Below, piece after piece: positions 7,294 to 64,000 of a stretch of DNA of 64,000 nucleotides (positions are counted from its first letter, which is position 1; every line of letters starts with the position of its first letter). The position numbers were made by a program, and so were the translations under genes. The notes beneath the pieces are model-generated. The model saw nothing but the letters and a program-made list of their open reading frames with translations. It had not been told where the DNA came from and did no database searches. Origin of the DNA: Morinoia aosen. Its lineage: Eukaryota; Arthropoda; Malacostraca; Amphipoda; Talitridae. Location of the stretch: the NCBI GenBank assembly GCA_030386875.1, contig CM059567.1, positions 54,358,020 through 54,422,019 on the forward strand. The letters are read 5' to 3'.

Positions 7294-9227
7294 TCACTCA
7301 TATGCAAAGGCTTCATGCTGTCAGTAACTCATCACTCACAAGCAAAGGCATCACGCTGGCAGTAACTCATCACTCACAAGCAAAGGTATCAGGCTGTCAG
7401 TAACTCATCACTCACAAGGAAAGGCATTAGGCTGTCAGTAACTAATCACTCACATACAATGGCAACAAGCTGTCAGTAACTCATCACTCACAAGCAAAGG
7501 CATCAGGCTGTTCATCATTACTCAAGAGCAAAGGCATCACGCTGTCAGTAACTCATCACTCACAAGCAAAGGCATCACGCTGTCAGTAACTCATCACTCA
7601 CACACAAAGGCATCACGCTGTCAGTAACTCATCACTCACAAGCAAAGGCATCACGCTGTCAGTAACTCATCACTCACAAGCAAAGGCATCACGCTGTCAG
7701 TAACTCATCACTCACATACAAAGGCATCACGCTGTCAGTAACTCATCACTCACAAGCAAAGGCATCACGCTGTCAGTAACTCATCACTCACAAGCAAAGG
7801 CATCACGCTGTCAGTAACTCATCACTCACATACAAAGGCATCACGCTGTCAGTAACTCATCACTCACAAGCAAAGGCATCACGCTGTCAGTAACTCATCA
7901 CTCACAAGCAAAGGCTCCACGCTGTCAGTAACTCATCACTCACAAGCAAAGGCATCACGCTGTCAGTAACTCATCACTCACAAGCAAAGGCATCACGCTG
8001 TCAGTAACTCATCACTCACATACAAAGGCATCACGCTGTCAGTAACTCATCACTCACAAGCAAAGGCATCACGCTGTCAGTAACTCATCACTCACAAGCA
8101 AAGGCTCCACGCTGTCAGTAACTCATCACTCACATACAAAGGCATCACGCTGTCAGTAACTCATCACTCACATACAAAGGCATCTCGCTGTCAGTAACTC
8201 ATCACTCACATACAAAGGCATCACGCTGTCAGTAACTCATCACTCACAAGCAAAGGCATCACGCTGTCAGTAACTCATCACTCACAAGCAAAGGCATAAC
8301 GCTGTCAGTAACTCATCACTCACATACAAAGGCATCACGCTGTCAGTAACTCATCACTCACAAGCAAAGGCATCACGCTGTCAGTAACTCATCACTCACA
8401 AGCAAAGGCTTCACGCTGTCAGTAACTCATCACTCACAAGCAAAGGCATCACGCTGTCAGTAACTCATCACTCACATACAAAGGCATCACGCTGTCAGTA
8501 ACTCATCACTCACAAGCAAAGGCATCACGCTGTCAGTAACTCATCACTCACAAGCAAAGGCATCACGCTGTCAGTAACTCATCACTCACATACAAAGGCA
8601 TCACGCTGTCAGTAACTCATCACTCACAAGAAAAGGCATCACGCTGTCAGTAACTCATCACTCACAAGCAAAGGCTTCACGCTGTCAGTAACTCATCACT
8701 CACATACAAAGGCATCACGCTGTCAGTAACTCATCACTCACATACAAAGGCATCAGGCTGTCAGTAACTCATCACTCACAAGCAAAGGCTTCACGCTGTC
8801 AGTAACTCATCACTCACATACAAAGGCATCACGCTGTCAGTAACTCATCACTCACATACAAAGGCATCACGCTGTCAGTAACTCATCACTCACAAGAAAA
8901 GGCATCACGCTGTCAGTAACTCATCACTCACAAGCAAAGGCTTCACGCTGTCAGTAACTCATCACTCACATACAAAGGCATCACGCTGTCAGTAACTCAT
9001 CACTCACATACAAAGGCATCAGGCTGTCATTTACTCATCACTCACAAGCAAAGGCTTCACGCTGTCAATAACTCATCACTCACATACAAAGGCATCACGC
9101 TGTCAGTAACTCATCACTCACAAGCAAAGGCTTCACGCTGTCAGTAACTCATCACTCACATACAAAGGCATCACGCTGTCAGTAACTCATCACTCACATA
9201 CAAAGGCATCAGGCTGTCAGTAACTCA
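7294..9227. repeat. 38-bp minisatellite, about 51 units
   Basis: The consensus starts AAGCAAAGGCATCACGCTGT and continues CAGTAACTCATCACTCAC. Units differ mainly at AAGC versus ATAC and at GGCATCAC versus GGCTTCAC, GGCTCCAC or GGCATCAGG. The first six units are the most diverged, and unit 6 has an internal deletion near 7507. In the right third, variant types recur every seven units (266 bp). Every unit contains TAA in one frame. No coding role. Confidence 0.95.
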
Positions 9228-36970: not shown

Positions 36971-39900
36971 TCTTTGCTGTGGTCGTCTCTTTGCTGTGGT
37001 CATCTCTTTGCTTTCTTTGCTGTGGTCGTCTCTTTGCTCTCTGTGCTGTGGTCGTCTCTTTGCTGTGGTCGTCTCTTTGCTTTCTTTGCTGTGGTCGTCT
37101 CTTTGCTCTCTGTGCTGTGGTCGTCTCTTTGCTGTGGTCGTCTCTTTGCTCTCTGTGCTGTGGTCATCTCTTTGCTGTGGTCGTCTCTTTGCTTTCTTTG
37201 CTGTGGTCGTCTCTTTGCTCTCTGTGCTGTGGTCGTCTCTTTGCTCTCTGTGCTGTGGTCGTCTCTTTGCTCTCTGTGCTGTGATCGTCTCTTTGCTCTC
37301 TGTGCTGTGGTCGTCTCTTTGCTCTCTGTGCTGTGGTCGTCTCTTTGCTCTCTGTGCTGTGGTCGTCTCTTTGCTCTCTGTGCTGTGATCGTCTCTTTGC
37401 TCTCTGTGCTGTGATCGTCTCTTTGCTCTCTGTGCTGTGGTCGTCTCTTTGCTCTCTGTGCTGTGATCGTCTCTTTGCTCTCTGTGCTGTGATCGTCTCT
37501 TTGCTCTCTGTGCTGTGATCGTCTCTTTGCTCTCTGTGCTGTGATCGTCTCTTTGCTCTCTGTGCTGTGGTCGTCTCTTTGCTCTCTGTGCTGTGATCGT
37601 CTCTTTGCTCTCTGTGCTGTGGTCGTCTCTTTGCTCTCTGTGCTGTGGTCGTCTCTTTGCTCTCTGTGCTGTGGTCGTCTCTTTGCTCTCTGTGCTGTGA
37701 TCGTCTCTTTGCTCTCTGTGCTGTGATCGTCTCTTTGCTCTCTGTGCTGTGATCGTCTCTTTGCTCTCTGTGCTGTGGTCGTCTCTTTGCTCTCTGTGCT
37801 GTGATCGTCTCTTTGCTCTCTGTGCTGTGATCGTCTCTTTGCTCTCTGTGCTGTGGTCGTCTCTTTGCTCTCTGTGCTGTGATCGTCTCTTTGCTCTCTG
37901 TGCTGTGATCGTCTCTTTGCTCTCTGTGCTGTGATCGTCTCTTTGCTCTCTGTGCTGTGATCGTCTCTTTGCTCTCTGTGCTGTGGTCGTCTCTTTGCTC
38001 TCTGTGCTGTGATCGTCTCTTTGCTCTCTGTGCTGTGATCGTCTCTTTGCTCTCTGTGCTGTGGTCGTCTCTTTGCTCTCTGTGCTGTGGTCGTCTCTTT
38101 GCTCTCTGTGCTGTGGTCGTCTCTCTGCTCTCTGTGCTGTGATCGTCTCTTTGCTCTCTGTGCTGTGGTCGTCTCTTTGCTCTCTGTGCTGTGGTCGTCT
38201 CTTTGCTCTCTGTGCTGTGGTCGTCTCTCTGCTCTCTGTGCTGTGATCGTCTCTTTGCTCTCTGTGCTGTGATCGTCTCTTTGCTCTCTGTGCTGTGGTC
38301 GTCTCTTTGCTCTCTGTGCTGTGATCGTCTCTTTGCTCTCTGTGCTGTGGTCGTCTCTTTGCTCTCTGTGCTGTGATCGTCTCTTTGCTCTCTGTGCTGT
38401 GGTCGTCTCTTTGCTCTCTGTGCTGTGGTCGTCTCTTTGCTCTCTGTGCTGTGGTCGTCTCTTTGCTCTCTGTGCTGTGATCGTCTCTTTGCTCTCTGTG
38501 CTGTGATCGTCTCTTTGCTCTCTGTGCTGTGGTCGTCTCTTTGCTCTCTGTGCTGTGGTCGTCTCTTTGCTCTCTGTGCTGTGGTCGTCTCTCTGCTCTC
38601 TGTGCTGTGGTCGTCTCTTTGCTCTCTGTGCTGTGGTCGTCTCTTTGCTCTCTGTGCTGTGGTCGTCTCTTTGCTCTCTGTGCTGTGGTCGTCTCTTTGC
38701 TCTCTGTGCTGTGATCGTCTCTTTGCTCTCTGTGCTGTGGTCGTCTCTTTGCTCTCTGTGCTGTGGTCGTCTCTCTGCTTTCTTTGCTGTGGTCGTCTCT
38801 CTGCTTTCTTTGCTGTGGTCATCTCTCTGCTCTCTGTGCTGTGGTCATCTCTCTGCTTTCTTTGCTGTAGTCGTCTCTCTCCTCTCTGTGCTGTGGTCGT
38901 CTCTTTGCTGTGGTCGTCTCTCTGCTCTCTTTGCTGTGGTCGTCTCATTGCTCTCTTTGCTGTGGTCGTCTCTCTGCTTTCTTTGCTGTGGTCGCCTCTC
39001 TGCTCTCTGTGCTGTGGTCGTCTCTCTGCTTTTTTTGCTGTGGTCGTCTCTCTGCTTTCTTTGCTGTGGTCGTCTCTCTGCTCTCTGTGCTGTGGTCGTC
39101 TCTTTGCTCTTTGTGCTGTGATCGTCTCTTTGCTCTCTGTGCTGTGGTCGTCTCTCTGCTTTCTTTGCTGTGGTCGTCTCTCTGCTTTCTTTGCTGTGGT
39201 CGCCTCTCTGCTTTCTTTGCTGTGGTCGTCTCTCTGCTTTTTTTGCTGTGGTCGCCTCTCTGCTCTCTTTGCTGTGGTCGTCTCTCTGCTCTCTTTGCTG
39301 TGGTCGTCTCTCTGCTTTCTTTGCTGTGGTCGCCTCTCTGCTCTCTTTGCTGTGGTCGTCTCTCTGCTCTCTTTGCTGTGGTCGTCTCTCTGCTTTCTTT
39401 GCTGTGGTCGCCTCTCTGCTCTCTTTGCTGTGGTCGCCTCTCTGCTCTCTTTGCTGTGGTCGTCTCTCTGCTCTCTTTGCTGTGGTCGTCTCTCTGCTCT
39501 CTTTGCTGTGGTCGTCTCCCTGCTCTCTGTGCTGTGGTCGTCTCTTTGCTGTGGTCGTCTCCCTGCTCTCTTTGCTGTGGTCGTCTCTCTGCTCTCTTTG
39601 CTGTGGTCGTCTCTCTGCTCTCTGTGCTGTGGTCGTCTCTTTGCTGTGGTCGTCTCCCTGCTCTCTTTGCTGTGGTCGTCTCTCTGCTTTCTTTGCTGTG
39701 GTCGTCTCTCTGCTTTCTTTGCTGTGGTCGCCTCTCTGCTCTCTGTGCTGTGGTCGTCTCTCTGCTTTCTTTGCTGTGGTCGTCTCTCTGCTTTCTTTGC
39801 TGTGGTCGTCTCTCTGCTCTCTGTGCTGTGGTCGTCTCTCTGCTCTCTGTGCTGTGGTCGTCTCTTTGCTGTGATCGTCTCCCTGCTCTCTTTGCTGTGG

Positions 39901-40318
39901 TCGTCTCTCTGCTCTCTTTGCTGTGGTCGTCTCCCTGCTCTCTTTGCTGTGGTCGTCTCTCTGCTCTCTTTGCTGTGGTCGTCTCCCTGCTCTCTGTGCT
40001 GTGGTCGTCTCTTTGCTGTGGTCGTCTCCCTGCTCTCTTTGCTGTGGTCGTCTCTCTGCTCTCTTTGCTGTGGTCGTCTCTCTGCTCTCTGTGCTGTGGT
40101 CGTCTCTTTGCTGTGGTCGTCTCCCTGCTCTCTTTGCTGTGGTCGTCTCTCTGCTTTCTTTGCTGTGGTCGTCTCTCTGCTCTCTGTGCTGTGGTCGTCT
40201 CTCTGCTCTCTGTGCTGTGGTCGTCTCTTTGCTGTGGTCGTCTCCCTGCTCTCTTTGCTGTGGTCGTCTCTCTGCTCTCTTTGCTGTGGTCGTCTCATTG
40301 CTCTCTTTGCTGTGGCCG
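36971..40318. repeat. 26-bp minisatellite, roughly 130 units, + strand nearly free of A
   Basis: The unit is GCTGTGGTCGTCTCTTTGCT then CTCTGT. Shortened 17-bp units lacking the CTCTCTGTG-type 9 bp occur at both ends. Two zones: about 37.2-38.76 kb has uniform units that differ at GTGG/GTGA; about 38.76-40.3 kb has TCTCTGCTTTCTTT-type units and many 17-bp ones. Because 26 is not a multiple of 3 and the unit lacks minus-strand stops, every minus frame reads the same hydrophilic 26-residue repeat; hence the open frames of 1064 codons (-) and 639 codons (+). I call these by-products, not genes. Confidence 0.95.
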
Positions 40319-42820: not shown

Positions 42821-43752
42821 GAGACGCCTTTGTCGACGTGTTCGAGACGCCTTTGTCGACGTGTTCGACACGCCTTTGTCGACGTGTCCGAGACGCCTTT
42901 GTCGACGTGTTCGAGACGCCTTTGTCGACGTGTTCGAGACGCCTTTGTCGACGTGTTCGAGACGCCTTTGTCGACGTGTTCGAGACGCCTTTGTCGACGT
43001 GTTCGAGACGCCTTTGTCGACGTGTTCGAGACGCCTTTGTCGACGTGTTCGAGACGCCTTTGTCGACGTGTTCGAGACGCCTTTGTCGACGTGTTCGAGA
43101 CGCCTTTGTCGACGTGTCCGAGACGCCTTTGTCGACGTGTTCGAGACGCCTTTATCGACGTGTTCGAGACGCCTTTGTCGACGTGTTCGAGACGCCTTTG
43201 TCGACGTGTTCGAGACGCCTTTGTCGACGTGTCCGAGACGCCTTTGTCGACGTGTTTGAGACGCCTTTGTCGACGTGTTCGAGACGCCTTTGTCGACGTG
43301 TTCGAGACGCCTTTGTCGACGTTTTTGAGACGCCTTTGTCGACGTGTTCGAGACGCCTTTGTCGACGTGTTCGAGACGCCTTTGTCGACGTGTTCGAGAC
43401 GCCTTTGTCGACGTGTTCGAGACGCCTTTGTCGACGTGTTCGAGACGCCTTTGTCGACGTGTTTGAGACGCCTTTGTCGACGTGTTCGAGACGCCTTTGT
43501 CGACGTGTTCGAGACGCCTTTGTCGACGTGTTCGAGACGCCTTTGTCGACGTGTTTGAGACGCCTTTGTCGACGTGTTCGAGACGCCTTTGTCGACGTGT
43601 TCGAGACGCCTTTGTCGACGTGTTTGAGACGCCTTTGTCGACGTGTTTGAGACGCCTTTGTCGACGTGTTCGAGACGCCTTTGTCGACGTGTTCGAGACG
43701 CCTTTGTCGACGTGTTCGAGACGCCTTTGTCGACGTGTTTGAGACGCCTTTG
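42821..43752. repeat. 23-bp minisatellite, 40.5 units without indels
   Basis: The unit is GAGACGCCTTTGTCGACGTG then TTC; it contains a SalI site. The start at 42821 and the last GAGACG at 43741 are exactly 40 x 23 bp apart, so no indel survives. Substitutions: TTC to TTT or TCC before GAG, one TTTATC, one TTTTTGAG. As 23 is not a multiple of 3 and units lack stops, all six frames stay open (up to 332 codons); I do not call a gene. Confidence 0.96.
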
Positions 43753-59041: not shown

Positions 59042-59372
59042 ACGGCAAAACCTTCCATCATCGAAGCTTTAATCGGTCTTCCGGTGGTTCCAATTCACGG
59101 ATGAGTATATTCGCATGGATTTTAAATAGAACTAATGTAGAAAGAGTCTAAATCTTCCATCGTAGAAGCCTAACATAATCGGTCTCCGTGTGATGCCTAT
59201 TCACTGTATTCACCGTGTTTTTTCACATAGATTTCAAAAATAACTATTAGAGTAAAAGTCTAAATCTTCCATCTTAGAAGCATTCATTAGTCGGTCTTTC
59301 TGTGGTTTCTGTTCACGGAAGAGTATATTGACATAGATCATAAATATAACTATGACCTTAAAAGTTCAGAGT
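59042..59372. repeat. Three diverged tandem units of ~102-112 bp
   Basis: CTTCCATC starts the same block at 59052, 59154 and 59266: CTTCCATC.TAGAAGC, then RTCGGTCT, then TTCACGGAWGAGTATATT, then a TAAATAKAACTA-like part. It ends just before the Foldback-like element. Confidence 0.65.
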
Positions 59373-59429
59373 CAGGCCAGAAGCTGACTTTCTAGCGAGA
59401 CGCACACAAATACTACACCTTTTTCATTT

Positions 59430-59630
59430 CAAATTAATCTAAGTCAAGTTTAATTTAATCGAAGTGAAGTTCAATTTAATCCAAGTCAAGTTCAAATTAA
59501 TCCGAGTCAAGTTCAAATTAATCCAAGTCAAGTTCAAATTAATCCAAGTCAAGTTCAAATTAGTCCAAGTTAAGTTCAATTTAATCCAAGTCAAGTTCAA
59601 ATTAATCCAAGTCAAGTTCAAATTAATCCA
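59430..59630 (+). repeat. 21-bp tandem repeat, left arm
   Basis: About ten units of AAGTCAAGTTCAAATTAATC+C. Because 21 is a multiple of 3, it reads as a 7-residue repeat (IQVKFKL, or LNLTWIN on the other strand). These are by-products. Confidence 0.95.
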
Positions 59631-60623
59631 ACCCTCAGTTGAGTTATAAAAGGACATAATAATTTGTTAATATGAGTTTTTTTTGTGTTAAATATGAATC
59701 TATTGGTTGTTTTAAGCAAGACTGGTTTCGAGGATTTTTTTACACTCATTGATATTTATATACGTGATATTCTACTTTATCACATCAATGAAATCATAAC
59801 ATGCAAATACAAAAGGTTATCATTGAACGATATGTAGATTTAATCTTTAAAAGAAATACACAAATGCGATTCACTGAGCACTAATGTACGATTCCGTTTG
59901 AGTAAAATTACGTTACTACCCAGGTACATTCTTGCATTAGCAATATAAATGTTGACGTTCATTCTAATTCCGTGTTAGGCAATGTAAAGAAATGTAGTAT
60001 CCACTTACCATACGCAATAATCATACAAGAAACATTGTTTCTAACTTACTACTGATTTTATTTGTGTGTGTTCACAATTCAGTATATAATACTTTCAAGA
60101 CTTAAATATTCATAAAATGATTATTATAAAAGTTATTTAAGCCTTAAAAGTATTATGTATTGAATTGTAAACACACACAAATAAAATCAGTAGTGAATTG
60201 GAAACATTGTTTCTTGTATTATTATTGTCTATTGCAAGCGGTCGTACATTTCTTCACATTGACTAACACGGAATTAGAATGAATGGCAACATTTTTATTG
60301 CTAATGTAGGAATGCTTCTGGGTAGTAATGTACAAGTACGAGTATAAATTGTAATTAAACGGAATCGTACATTAGTACTCACTGAATCGCACTTGTATAT
60401 TTCTTTTAAAGATTAAATCTACATATCGTCCAATGATGATATTTTGTACTCGCATGTATTTGATTTCATATATGTGGTAAAATTGAATTTCACGTATATA
60501 AATATCTATGAGTGGAAATAAAGCCTCGAAACCAGTTTTGGTCATCACATCCAATAGATCCATATTTAACACAAAAAACTCAAATAAACAAATTATTATG
60601 TAATTTTTTAACTCAACTGAGGT

Positions 60624-60825
60624 TTGGATTAATTTGAACTTGACTTGGATTAATTTCAACTTGACTTGGATTAATTTGAACTTGACTTGGACTAAATTGA
60701 ACATTATTTGAATTAATTTGAACTTGACTTGGATTAATTTGAACTTGAGTCGGATTAACTTGAACTTGACTCGGATTAATTTGAACTTGACTTGGATTAA
60801 ATTGAACTTGACTTAGATTAATTTG
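60624..60825 (-). repeat. 21-bp tandem repeat, right arm, inverted
   Basis: The same unit as at 59430-59630, on the opposite strand (GGATTAATTTGAACTTGACT+T). Some units differ from the left arm, e.g. one with ACATTATTTGAATT. Confidence 0.95.
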
Positions 60826-60851
60826 AAGTGAAAAAGGTGTAGTTACGAATA

Positions 60852-62411: not shown

Positions 62412-64000
62412 TCTTGCAACACTTCTTGCTTGTCTCCTTTGTAGTCCTTGAGATTGTATTGCAACGCTTCTTGCTTGTCTCCTTTGTAGTCCGTGAGATT
62501 GTATTGCAACGCTTCTTGCTTGTCTCCTTTGTAGTCCGTGAGATTGTATTGCATCGCTTCTTGCATGTCTCCTTTGTGGTCCGTGAGATTGTACTGCAAC
62601 ACTACTTGCTTGTCTCCTTTGTAGTCCGTGAGATTGTATTGCAGCGCTTCTTGGTTGTCTCCTTTGTAGTCCTTGAGATTGTATTGCAACGCTTCTTGCT
62701 TGTCTCCTTTGTAGTCCGTGAGATTGTATTGCAGCGCTTCTTGGTTGTCTCCTTTGTAGTCCTTGAGATTGTATTGCAACGCTTCTTGCTTGTCTCCTTT
62801 GTAGTCCGTGAGATTGTATTGCAGCGCTTCTTGGTTGTCTCCTTTGTAGTCCTTGAGATTGTATTGCAACGCTTCTTGCTTGTCTCCTTTGTAGTCCGTG
62901 AGATTGTATTGCAACGCTTCTTGCTTGTCTCCTTTGTAGTCCGTGAGATTGTATTGCAACGCTTCTTGCTTGTCTCCTTTGTAGTCCGTGAGATTGTATT
63001 GCAGCGCTTCTTGGTTGTCTCCTTTGTAGTCCGTGAGATTGTATTGCAACGCTTCTTGCTTGTCTCCTTTGTAGTCCGTGAGATTGTATTGCAGCGCTTC
63101 TTGGTTGTCTCCTTTGTAGTCCGTGAGATTGTATTGCAACGCTTCTTGCTTGTCTCCTTTGTAGTCCGTGAGATTGTATTGCAGCGCTTCTTGGTTGTCT
63201 CCTTTGTAGTCCTTGAGATTGTATTGCAACGCTTCTTGCTTGTCTCCTTTGTAGTCCGTGAGATTGTATTGCAGCGCTTCTTGGTTGTCTCCTTTGTAGT
63301 CCGTGAGATTGTATTGCAGCGCTTCTTGGTTGTCTCCTTTGTAGTCCTTGAGATTGTATTGCAACGCTTCTTGCTTGTCTCCTTTGTAGTCCGTGAGATT
63401 GTATTGCAACACTTCTTGGTTGTCTCCTTTGTAGTCCTTGAGATTGTATTGCAACGCTTCTTGCTTGTCTCCTTTGTGGTCCGTGAGATTGTATTGCAAC
63501 GCTTCTTGGTTGTCTCCTTTGTAGTCCGTGAGATTGTATTGCAACGCTTCTTGCTTGTCTCCTTTGTAGTCCGTGAGATTGTATTGCAGCGCTTCTTGGT
63601 TGTCTCCTTTGTAGTCCTTGAGATTGTACTGCAACACTTCTTGGTTGTCTCCTTTGTGGTCCGTGAGATTGTATTGCAGCGCTTCTTGGTTGTCTCCTTT
63701 GTAGTCCTTGAGATTGTATTGCAACGCTTCTTGCTTGTCTCCTTTGTAGTCCGTGAGATTGTATTGCAGCGCTTCTTGGTTGTCTCCTTTGTAGTCCTTG
63801 AGATTGTATTGCAACGCTTCTTGCTTGTCTCCTTTGTAGTCCGTGAGATTGTATTGCAACGCTTCTTGGTTGTCTCCTTTGTAGTCCTTGAGATTGTATT
63901 GCAACGCTTCTTGCTTGTCTCCTTTGTAGTCCGTGAGATTGTATTGCAGCGCTTCTTGGTTGTCTCCTTTGTAGTCCTTGAGATTGTATTGCAACGCTTC
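62412..64000. repeat. 45-bp minisatellite, ~35 units, continues past the right edge
   Basis: The + strand unit starts GTCCGTGAGATTGTATTGCA and continues ACGCTTCTTGCTTGTCTCCTTTGTA. Variants CCGTGAG/CCTTGAG and CTTGCTTG/CTTGGTTG largely alternate, giving a 90-bp dimer period. The minus strand reads a 15-residue repeat (QYNLTDYKGDKQEAL / QYNLKDYKGDNQEAL) in an open frame of at least 534 codons ending in a TGA at 62390. The other two minus frames of the unit, and one plus frame, also contain no stop. The open frame alone is therefore weak evidence for a protein. No leader, start or domain is visible inside the window. Confidence 0.93.

Follow-up and report, generated by a model that had tools for sequence, protein, structure and literature searches.

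The Tc4 element of Caenorhabditis elegans, a DDD element of the Tc1/mariner superfamily, reportedly has a fold-back structure (a description attributed to Yuan et al., 1991), and IS630, which is not known to be a foldback, is said to prefer the TA of 5'-CTAG-3' as its target (a finding attributed to Tenzen and Ohtsubo, 1991). In the sea urchin TU elements, the outer domain of the inverted repeats consists of short direct repeats, and the duplication is 8 bp long; Sleeping Beauty and Bari-like elements duplicate TA and have few sites per end; Helitrons and Spy elements insert without target duplication. According to the papers cited here, Tc1/mariner/IS630 elements duplicate TA (PMC2170065, PMC7325037), Tc4 recognises CTNAG, inserts as C/TNA/G and duplicates only TNA (PMC11071193), and the bacterial IS630 produces a transposase of its own (PMC2170065). 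Published accounts also describe foldback anatomy together with 8–10-bp duplications in Tetris and Tm1 (PMC4079207, PMC3169594), further transposase-binding sites within the tandem repeats of the long terminal inverted repeats (TIRs) of Galileo, and secondary transposase-binding sites present as TIR repeats in Sleeping Beauty and Bari-like elements (PMC3688188).

The locus analyzed here lies in a 64,000-nucleotide stretch of the amphipod Morinoia aosen (the window; contig C12:54358020-54422019), and the genome searched comprised 1.99 Gb in 29 contigs. Self-comparison of the window showed that positions 59412-60843 form a near-complete palindrome with mirrored 21-bp arrays. The outermost inverted blocks, 59412-59686/60569-60843, are 275 nt long and 92% complementary, and they are followed inward by 59679-59796/60461-60578 (86%), 59799-59909/60347-60457 (88%), 59909-59996/60245-60332 (88%) and 60001-60108/60134-60241 (86%), with 25 nt separating the innermost arms. 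Tandem Repeats Finder placed 21-bp arrays at 59428-59631 (9.7 copies, 91% matches) and 60624-60827 (9.7 copies, 87%), that is, one unit, mirrored, on both sides. Both analyses agree with the preliminary description, in which an FB layout of long inverted repeats with outer 21-bp direct-repeat arrays of the same unit had been recognised. With regard to the extent given there (59412..60843), the palindrome was recovered in full, but the outer four bases at each end belong to the target and not to the element. Because the TA of CTAG is duplicated at five other insertion sites whose empty alleles were read, we infer that the element proper spans 59416-60839 (1,424 bp) and that the outer ACTA and TAGT are target sequence. 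The features are as follows:

59412..59415, no strand: left half of the target site, ACTA, in which TA 59414-59415 is one copy of the duplication (from the empty alleles of five other insertions and terminal-base counts)
59416..60839, no strand: foldback element, 1,424 bp, CACCTTTTTCA...GAAAAAGGTG (from the palindrome, arm alignment and ORF list)
59416..59427, forward strand: left terminal inverted repeat, outer end
59428..59631, forward strand: left array, 21-bp unit TTCAAATTAATCCAAGTCAAG, 9.7 copies (Tandem Repeats Finder)
59632..60108, forward strand: left inner arm, non-tandem (from the inverted blocks and arm alignment)
60109..60133, no strand: loop, 25 nt (from the inverted blocks and folding)
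60134..60623, reverse strand: right inner arm, non-tandem (from the inverted blocks and arm alignment)
60624..60827, reverse strand: right array, unit TTCAAATTAATCCAAGTCAAG inverted, 9.7 copies (Tandem Repeats Finder)
60828..60839, reverse strand: right terminal inverted repeat, outer end
60840..60843, no strand: right half of the target site, TAGT, in which TA 60840-60841 represents the other duplicate (same basis as the left half)

A full-length alignment of the two arms of the window copy had 613 identities among 695 aligned bases, with 34 additional gapped columns. The array part was gap-free (200/216 identical), and the inner part (413/479 identical plus 34 gapped columns) showed 14% mismatches, or about 20% including gapped columns, which matches the difference of some 20% first estimated for the non-tandem part. 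No open reading frame of at least 130 aa overlapped the element (59416-60839), as had been proposed. Folding of the central 241 nt as DNA yielded -65.1 kcal/mol, compared with an average of -18.0 for shuffled sequences (z -15.25), none of 200 shuffles folding as well. The window copy is an apparently non-coding, foldback-shaped mobile element that folds into a long hairpin. Directly before it, at 59069-59352, the window also contains diverged direct repeats with spacings of 112 and 218 and a unit of about 110 bp.

Genome-wide searches showed that the element belongs to a dispersed family. The 15-base terminus given in the preliminary description occurred 882+891 times, compared with 6+5 for the pattern read backwards, and exact 21-base termini occurred 1,893 times (reversed patterns, 0). 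When the left inner arm was used as the query, 40 of 2,016 candidates were scored and yielded 77 matches on many contigs. Other genomic copies with the same termini, on which the initial reading had been made to depend, are thus abundant. Three nearly identical matches (two on C12, one on C24) have common flanks and represent one segmental duplication, and the copies sit in unrelated flanks in the 38 non-redundant flank pairs compared (from 37 elements, L016 contributing two left ends). Copy number is on the order of several hundred or more, the 1,893 exact termini including segmental duplicates, and in 37 elements, subfamily variants included, copy length from CTA to TAG ranged from 1,027 to 3,655 bp.

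Many of these loci were retrieved by an exact terminus, so that end conservation is overstated among them; copies retrieved by their arms (L029-L058) are free of this bias, but only pairs with recognisable ends were kept in the flank and array analyses. Divergence from the consensus was determined in 20 arm-retrieved copies, those lacking recognisable ends having been dropped, and amounted to 14/600 sites in the terminal 15 nt including CTA and to 3.0% at 19 unit positions (270 units). The corresponding inner-arm value, 6.9% (39 arms), is inflated by the mixing of two arm lineages.

The base preceding CTACACCTTTTTCACTTCAA was A in 1,388 cases (686+702), T in 451 (221+230) and C or G in 54 (28+26), with reversed controls of 0; W therefore precedes 1,839 of 1,893 termini (97%), compared with a background of 130/230 (57%) in the window and 477/945 (50%) in the retrieved loci for W before CTAG strands. 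Exact matches directly at the ends were found in 12 of the 38 flank pairs at 1 bp, 2 at 2 bp, 0 at 3 bp and 1 at 4 bp, and no pair was exact at 5 to 14 bp. Similarly, a comparison of 34 pairs at several offsets near the termini, for lengths of 2–12, gave scattered short matches only. A mechanism without duplication, first suggested by these flank pairs, was overturned by the empty alleles.

In a single assembly, an empty allele is visible only where the flank itself is repeated. Empty alleles were read at five insertion sites, all five being WCTAGW with one exact CTAG at the junction, where the filled site reads WCTA[CACC...GGTG]TAGW. One of them is the insertion in L016/L028/L001. The host, a dispersed repeat with CCGGGG motifs, occurs without insert at three places as ...TTGTACTAGTG[T/C]GCCC (one locus retrieved, the others seen as matched strings); when filled, it reads ...TTGTAC[T/G]A followed by CNCC at the left end and GGTGTAGTGT at the right. 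A search with the joined flanks of 32 sites, one CTAG placed between them, gave 39 matches to the L058 site and 1 to the L055 site among the 40 scored; three L058 loci and one L055 locus were read, with 2–3 mismatches each and none in CTAG. The search was repeated with 29 sites (without L005, L058 and L055) and gave strong matches at L041, L050, L014, L015 and L067. At L041 and L014, one locus each was read, and CTAG was exact at the junction; these matches were 3–4 bases shorter than predicted, the gaps lying away from the junction. As judged from the search rows, L050, L015 and L067 each had one or more matches that crossed the junction without a length difference; further L050 and L015 matches differed in length, and L017 had a weak match of 43 bases vs 45 in the query. 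No strong junction-spanning match appeared at 24 of the 29 sites, L017 included, among the 40 scored candidates. An empty-site pattern for the L005/L058 repeat had 0 matches, its chosen letters differing from other copies of that repeat; L090, L091 and L094 read CGAGCTCACC at the differing place. For the window copy, the query lacked the junction bases ACTAGT and returned no empty allele, its 6 matches being both flanks of the three filled segmental-duplication copies; no other locus matched either flank.

Since the empty alleles hold one TA and the filled sites two, the family targets the TA within CTAG and duplicates only this dinucleotide; the target is WCTAGW, because all five empty sites have this form and W precedes 97% of the termini. 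The constant-length target duplication for which the flanks were to be inspected proved to be a 2-bp TA inside CTAG, not the 8–10 bp of FB/Mutator-type foldbacks. Such a duplication can hide, as both TA copies look like part of a conserved end (CTA/TAG), and only the empty alleles exposed them. Mobility of the family is supported by dispersed copies with fixed ends together with the five insertion sites with readable empty alleles.

Some further features of the flanks were observed. In the flanks of L003, L016, L028 and L086, the foldback is a passenger of the GC-rich dispersed repeat that has CCGGGG motifs. L005 and L058 have the foldback at an identical position within one dispersed repeat, L005 showing a short deletion next to it, and both may perhaps derive from one insertion spread by the host repeat. 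Several termini (flanks of L002, L017 and L054) directly follow GGGGGGTGG, possibly a shared or preferred target sequence.

We consider it probable that these copies constitute a non-autonomous, CTAG-targeting foldback family of DNA transposons of the Tc1/mariner type. TA duplication, read at five sites, and terminal inverted repeats both point to the IS630-Tc1-mariner superfamily; the sole Tc1/mariner-like frame encountered in a partial search lies in a nested element whose termini are different. As TA duplication marks this superfamily, and as Tc4 and IS630 provide parallels in target choice, a Tc1/mariner-type transposase would mobilise the family in trans. Such an enzyme, encoded elsewhere, would cut the element out at CACC...GGTG, and the excised element would enter a palindromic WCTAGW target at its TA, with the central TA being duplicated and the outer C and G staying single.

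The closest published behaviour is that of Tc4, which, in the description cited above, shares with the Morinoia family a fold-back structure and a palindromic CT(N)AG target of which the middle alone is duplicated. The two differ in the target and duplication, CTNAG/TNA in Tc4 and CTAG/TA here, and also in the 21-bp arrays of the Morinoia arms, which are not known from Tc4; no transposase was found for the Morinoia family in a partial search. IS630 is likewise said to prefer the TA of CTAG and duplicates TA, but is bacterial and has its own transposase. Sleeping Beauty and Bari-like elements also duplicate TA and have transposase-binding repeats within their TIRs, as the Morinoia arrays may be, but are not fold-backs, and the Morinoia arrays reach 112 units. 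TU elements have the outer domain of short direct repeats in common with the Morinoia family and differ by their 8-bp duplication. With Tetris, Tm1, Galileo and FB, which are assigned to the Mutator or P superfamilies, the common ground is long inverted repeats with internal tandem repeats and many non-coding copies, and the difference lies in duplications of 8–10 bp (Tetris and Tm1) or 7 bp (Galileo) vs TA. The family is therefore foldback in anatomy, Tc1/mariner-like in insertion and Tc4-like in combination; it is not Tc4, because its target is CTAG and not CTNAG, nor FB/Mutator, because its duplication is TA. Thus, of the FB likeness given at the outset, the anatomy stands, with its inverted repeats and arrays, and membership in FB/Mutator is not supported, with TA only at the five sites. 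A foldback combining arrays with TA-in-CTAG insertion was not found in literature titles and abstracts, which is weak evidence of absence. The Morinoia family adds to the case that the foldback shape arises independently in different superfamilies.

Four other explanations were weighed against a Tc1/mariner-type foldback. It is unlikely, though it deserves consideration, that the family is a CMC (CACTA/Mirage-type) element, with CAC termini, subterminal clusters of a protein-binding motif and short duplications. The termini read CACCTTTTTCAC once TA is removed, the subterminal repeats resemble the clustered motifs of En/Spm, and TA duplication is reported for some Mirage elements; against this, the target is strictly CTAG with TA duplicated at the five sites read, and the ends are CACC (CACCT), whereas CMC elements are defined by CACTA or CACTG. 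A true foldback of the FB/Mutator type, the group in which most foldbacks are usually placed, would explain long inverted repeats that consist in part of short direct repeats, and Tetris and Tm1 are described with a like anatomy (PMC4079207, PMC3169594), but the lack of any exact flank pair at 5 to 14 bp (0/38), and hence of a duplication of 8–10 bp, and the empty alleles with TA only make it very improbable. Insertion without duplication in the manner of Helitrons or Spy, the outer A and T being host bases, would fit the observation that nothing beyond chance matches is repeated outside CTACACC...GGTGTAG in the 38 flank pairs; with one TA in the empty alleles and two in the filled sites, hardly any credence can be given to it. 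Finally, a local inverted duplication (named at the outset as what might overturn a mobile element) or a dispersed satellite palindrome that is no transposon would account for satellite-like arrays, of which an exact double unit was counted 2,143+1,968 times (none for the reversed control), and is virtually eliminated by many dispersed fixed-end copies in unrelated flanks and by precise empty alleles at five sites.

The relationship between the two arms was examined in the copies with both arms aligned, in which they were mutually closest in only 1 of 33 (L016). In the tree, the window left arm clusters with a single arm from each of five copies (L033, L034, L036, L037 and L041), and the window right arm with the opposite arm in three of these (L036, L037 and L041); the arm difference therefore predates the spread of that group. 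Unit numbers of the two arms were uncorrelated (rho -0.12, p 0.51), and array similarity was only slightly higher within the same copy (0.898) than between different copies (0.894; permutation p 0.0037, 30 copies). Some copies had rather similar arms (L050, 0.940; L052, 0.928; L044, 0.916), the arms of L013 and L044 pair in the tree, and occasional arm conversion may occur. In most copies, the two arms have separate ancestry. The preliminary description had offered either array expansion after divergence or sequence exchange between arms as the reason for the shared unit; these results do not support exchange, leaving independent growth and shrinkage of the arrays.

Array length varies widely and freely in a 21-bp register. 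In 37 elements, a unit-walking script counted from 0 to 112 units per arm (112 in L009), low counts being lower bounds, as the script stops at indels. Of 767 distances of at most 45 bases between the starts of adjacent units, 753 measured exactly 21 bases, and in 559 interior units from 30 copies, positions 6 (A/T) and 14 (A/G) were polymorphic and the other 19 strongly conserved. Because the tandem repeats of Galileo hold such sites, the 21-bp units are candidates for repeated transposase-binding sites, which may recruit the enzyme. The DNA helix has 10.5 bp per turn, and the fit of the 21-bp register to two helical turns is suggestive for this reading, since every unit would then face the same side of the DNA. 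More tentatively, the arrays might form a transposase-binding lattice, on which an enzyme of the Tc1/mariner type, with a CTAG specificity like that of IS630, would assemble over as many as 112 units per arm; we regard this as possible rather than probable. If true, the Morinoia family would represent a foldback lineage of animals whose mobility in trans is adjusted through the length of its arrays. Copies with arrays of up to 112 units provide a natural series for testing whether subterminal arrays aid transposition.

In order to find a partner element, a partial search for a transposase-bearing copy was performed, covering frames in six loci, 103 terminus matches and an array-less pattern, and none was found. 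Stop-to-stop frames of at least 80 aa in L009, L013, L014, L016, L049 and L053 comprised array read-through, a nested mariner-like frame in L016 and short frames. Among the retrieved loci and the window, 101 of 103 terminus-like matches were followed by the array. Exact termini without an array in register occurred 16+12 times genome-wide (reversed control, 1+0), many of them representing small shifts; the pattern demands four non-consensus bases and catches about one-third of unrelated continuations. Three termini were plainly array-less, among which L095 showed nothing transposon-like by eye in 601 bases and L096 gave an uninformative interior stretch of 111 bases. A 5.4-kb facing terminus pair on C4 was rejected as one element owing to an opposite-sense terminus at about 69985010; other widely spaced facing termini were a 5.3-kb pair (C4:93689906-93695181), 4.6-kb, 3.3-kb and 2.2-kb pairs on C2 and a 2.5-kb pair on C3. 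The L016 frame has 370 aa from stop to stop, and the 355 aa from its first methionine gave weak Pfam matches, with DUF4817 and HTH_24 above the cut-offs and HTH_Tnp_Tc3_2, HTH_32 and DDE_3 below them. This frame was rejected as the enzyme of the foldback family, because ACAGGGTGTTTC inverted ends of a separate element enclose it, and this element is nested in an arm of a foldback copy. The inspected copies showed no coding capacity of their own, which supports the earlier suggestion that mobility would depend on a partner.

The nested mariner-like element is a separate one, located at about 840-2331 of L016 with ends ACAGGGTGTTTCAAAAATAC. Elsewhere in the window, a 156-aa open frame at 490-960 resembles the C-terminal part of a LINE reverse transcriptase. 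The window also contains very long minisatellites at 7294-9227 (38-bp unit), 36986-40315 (26/52), 42821-43752 (23) and 62414-64000 (45), the last three of which read as long open frames.
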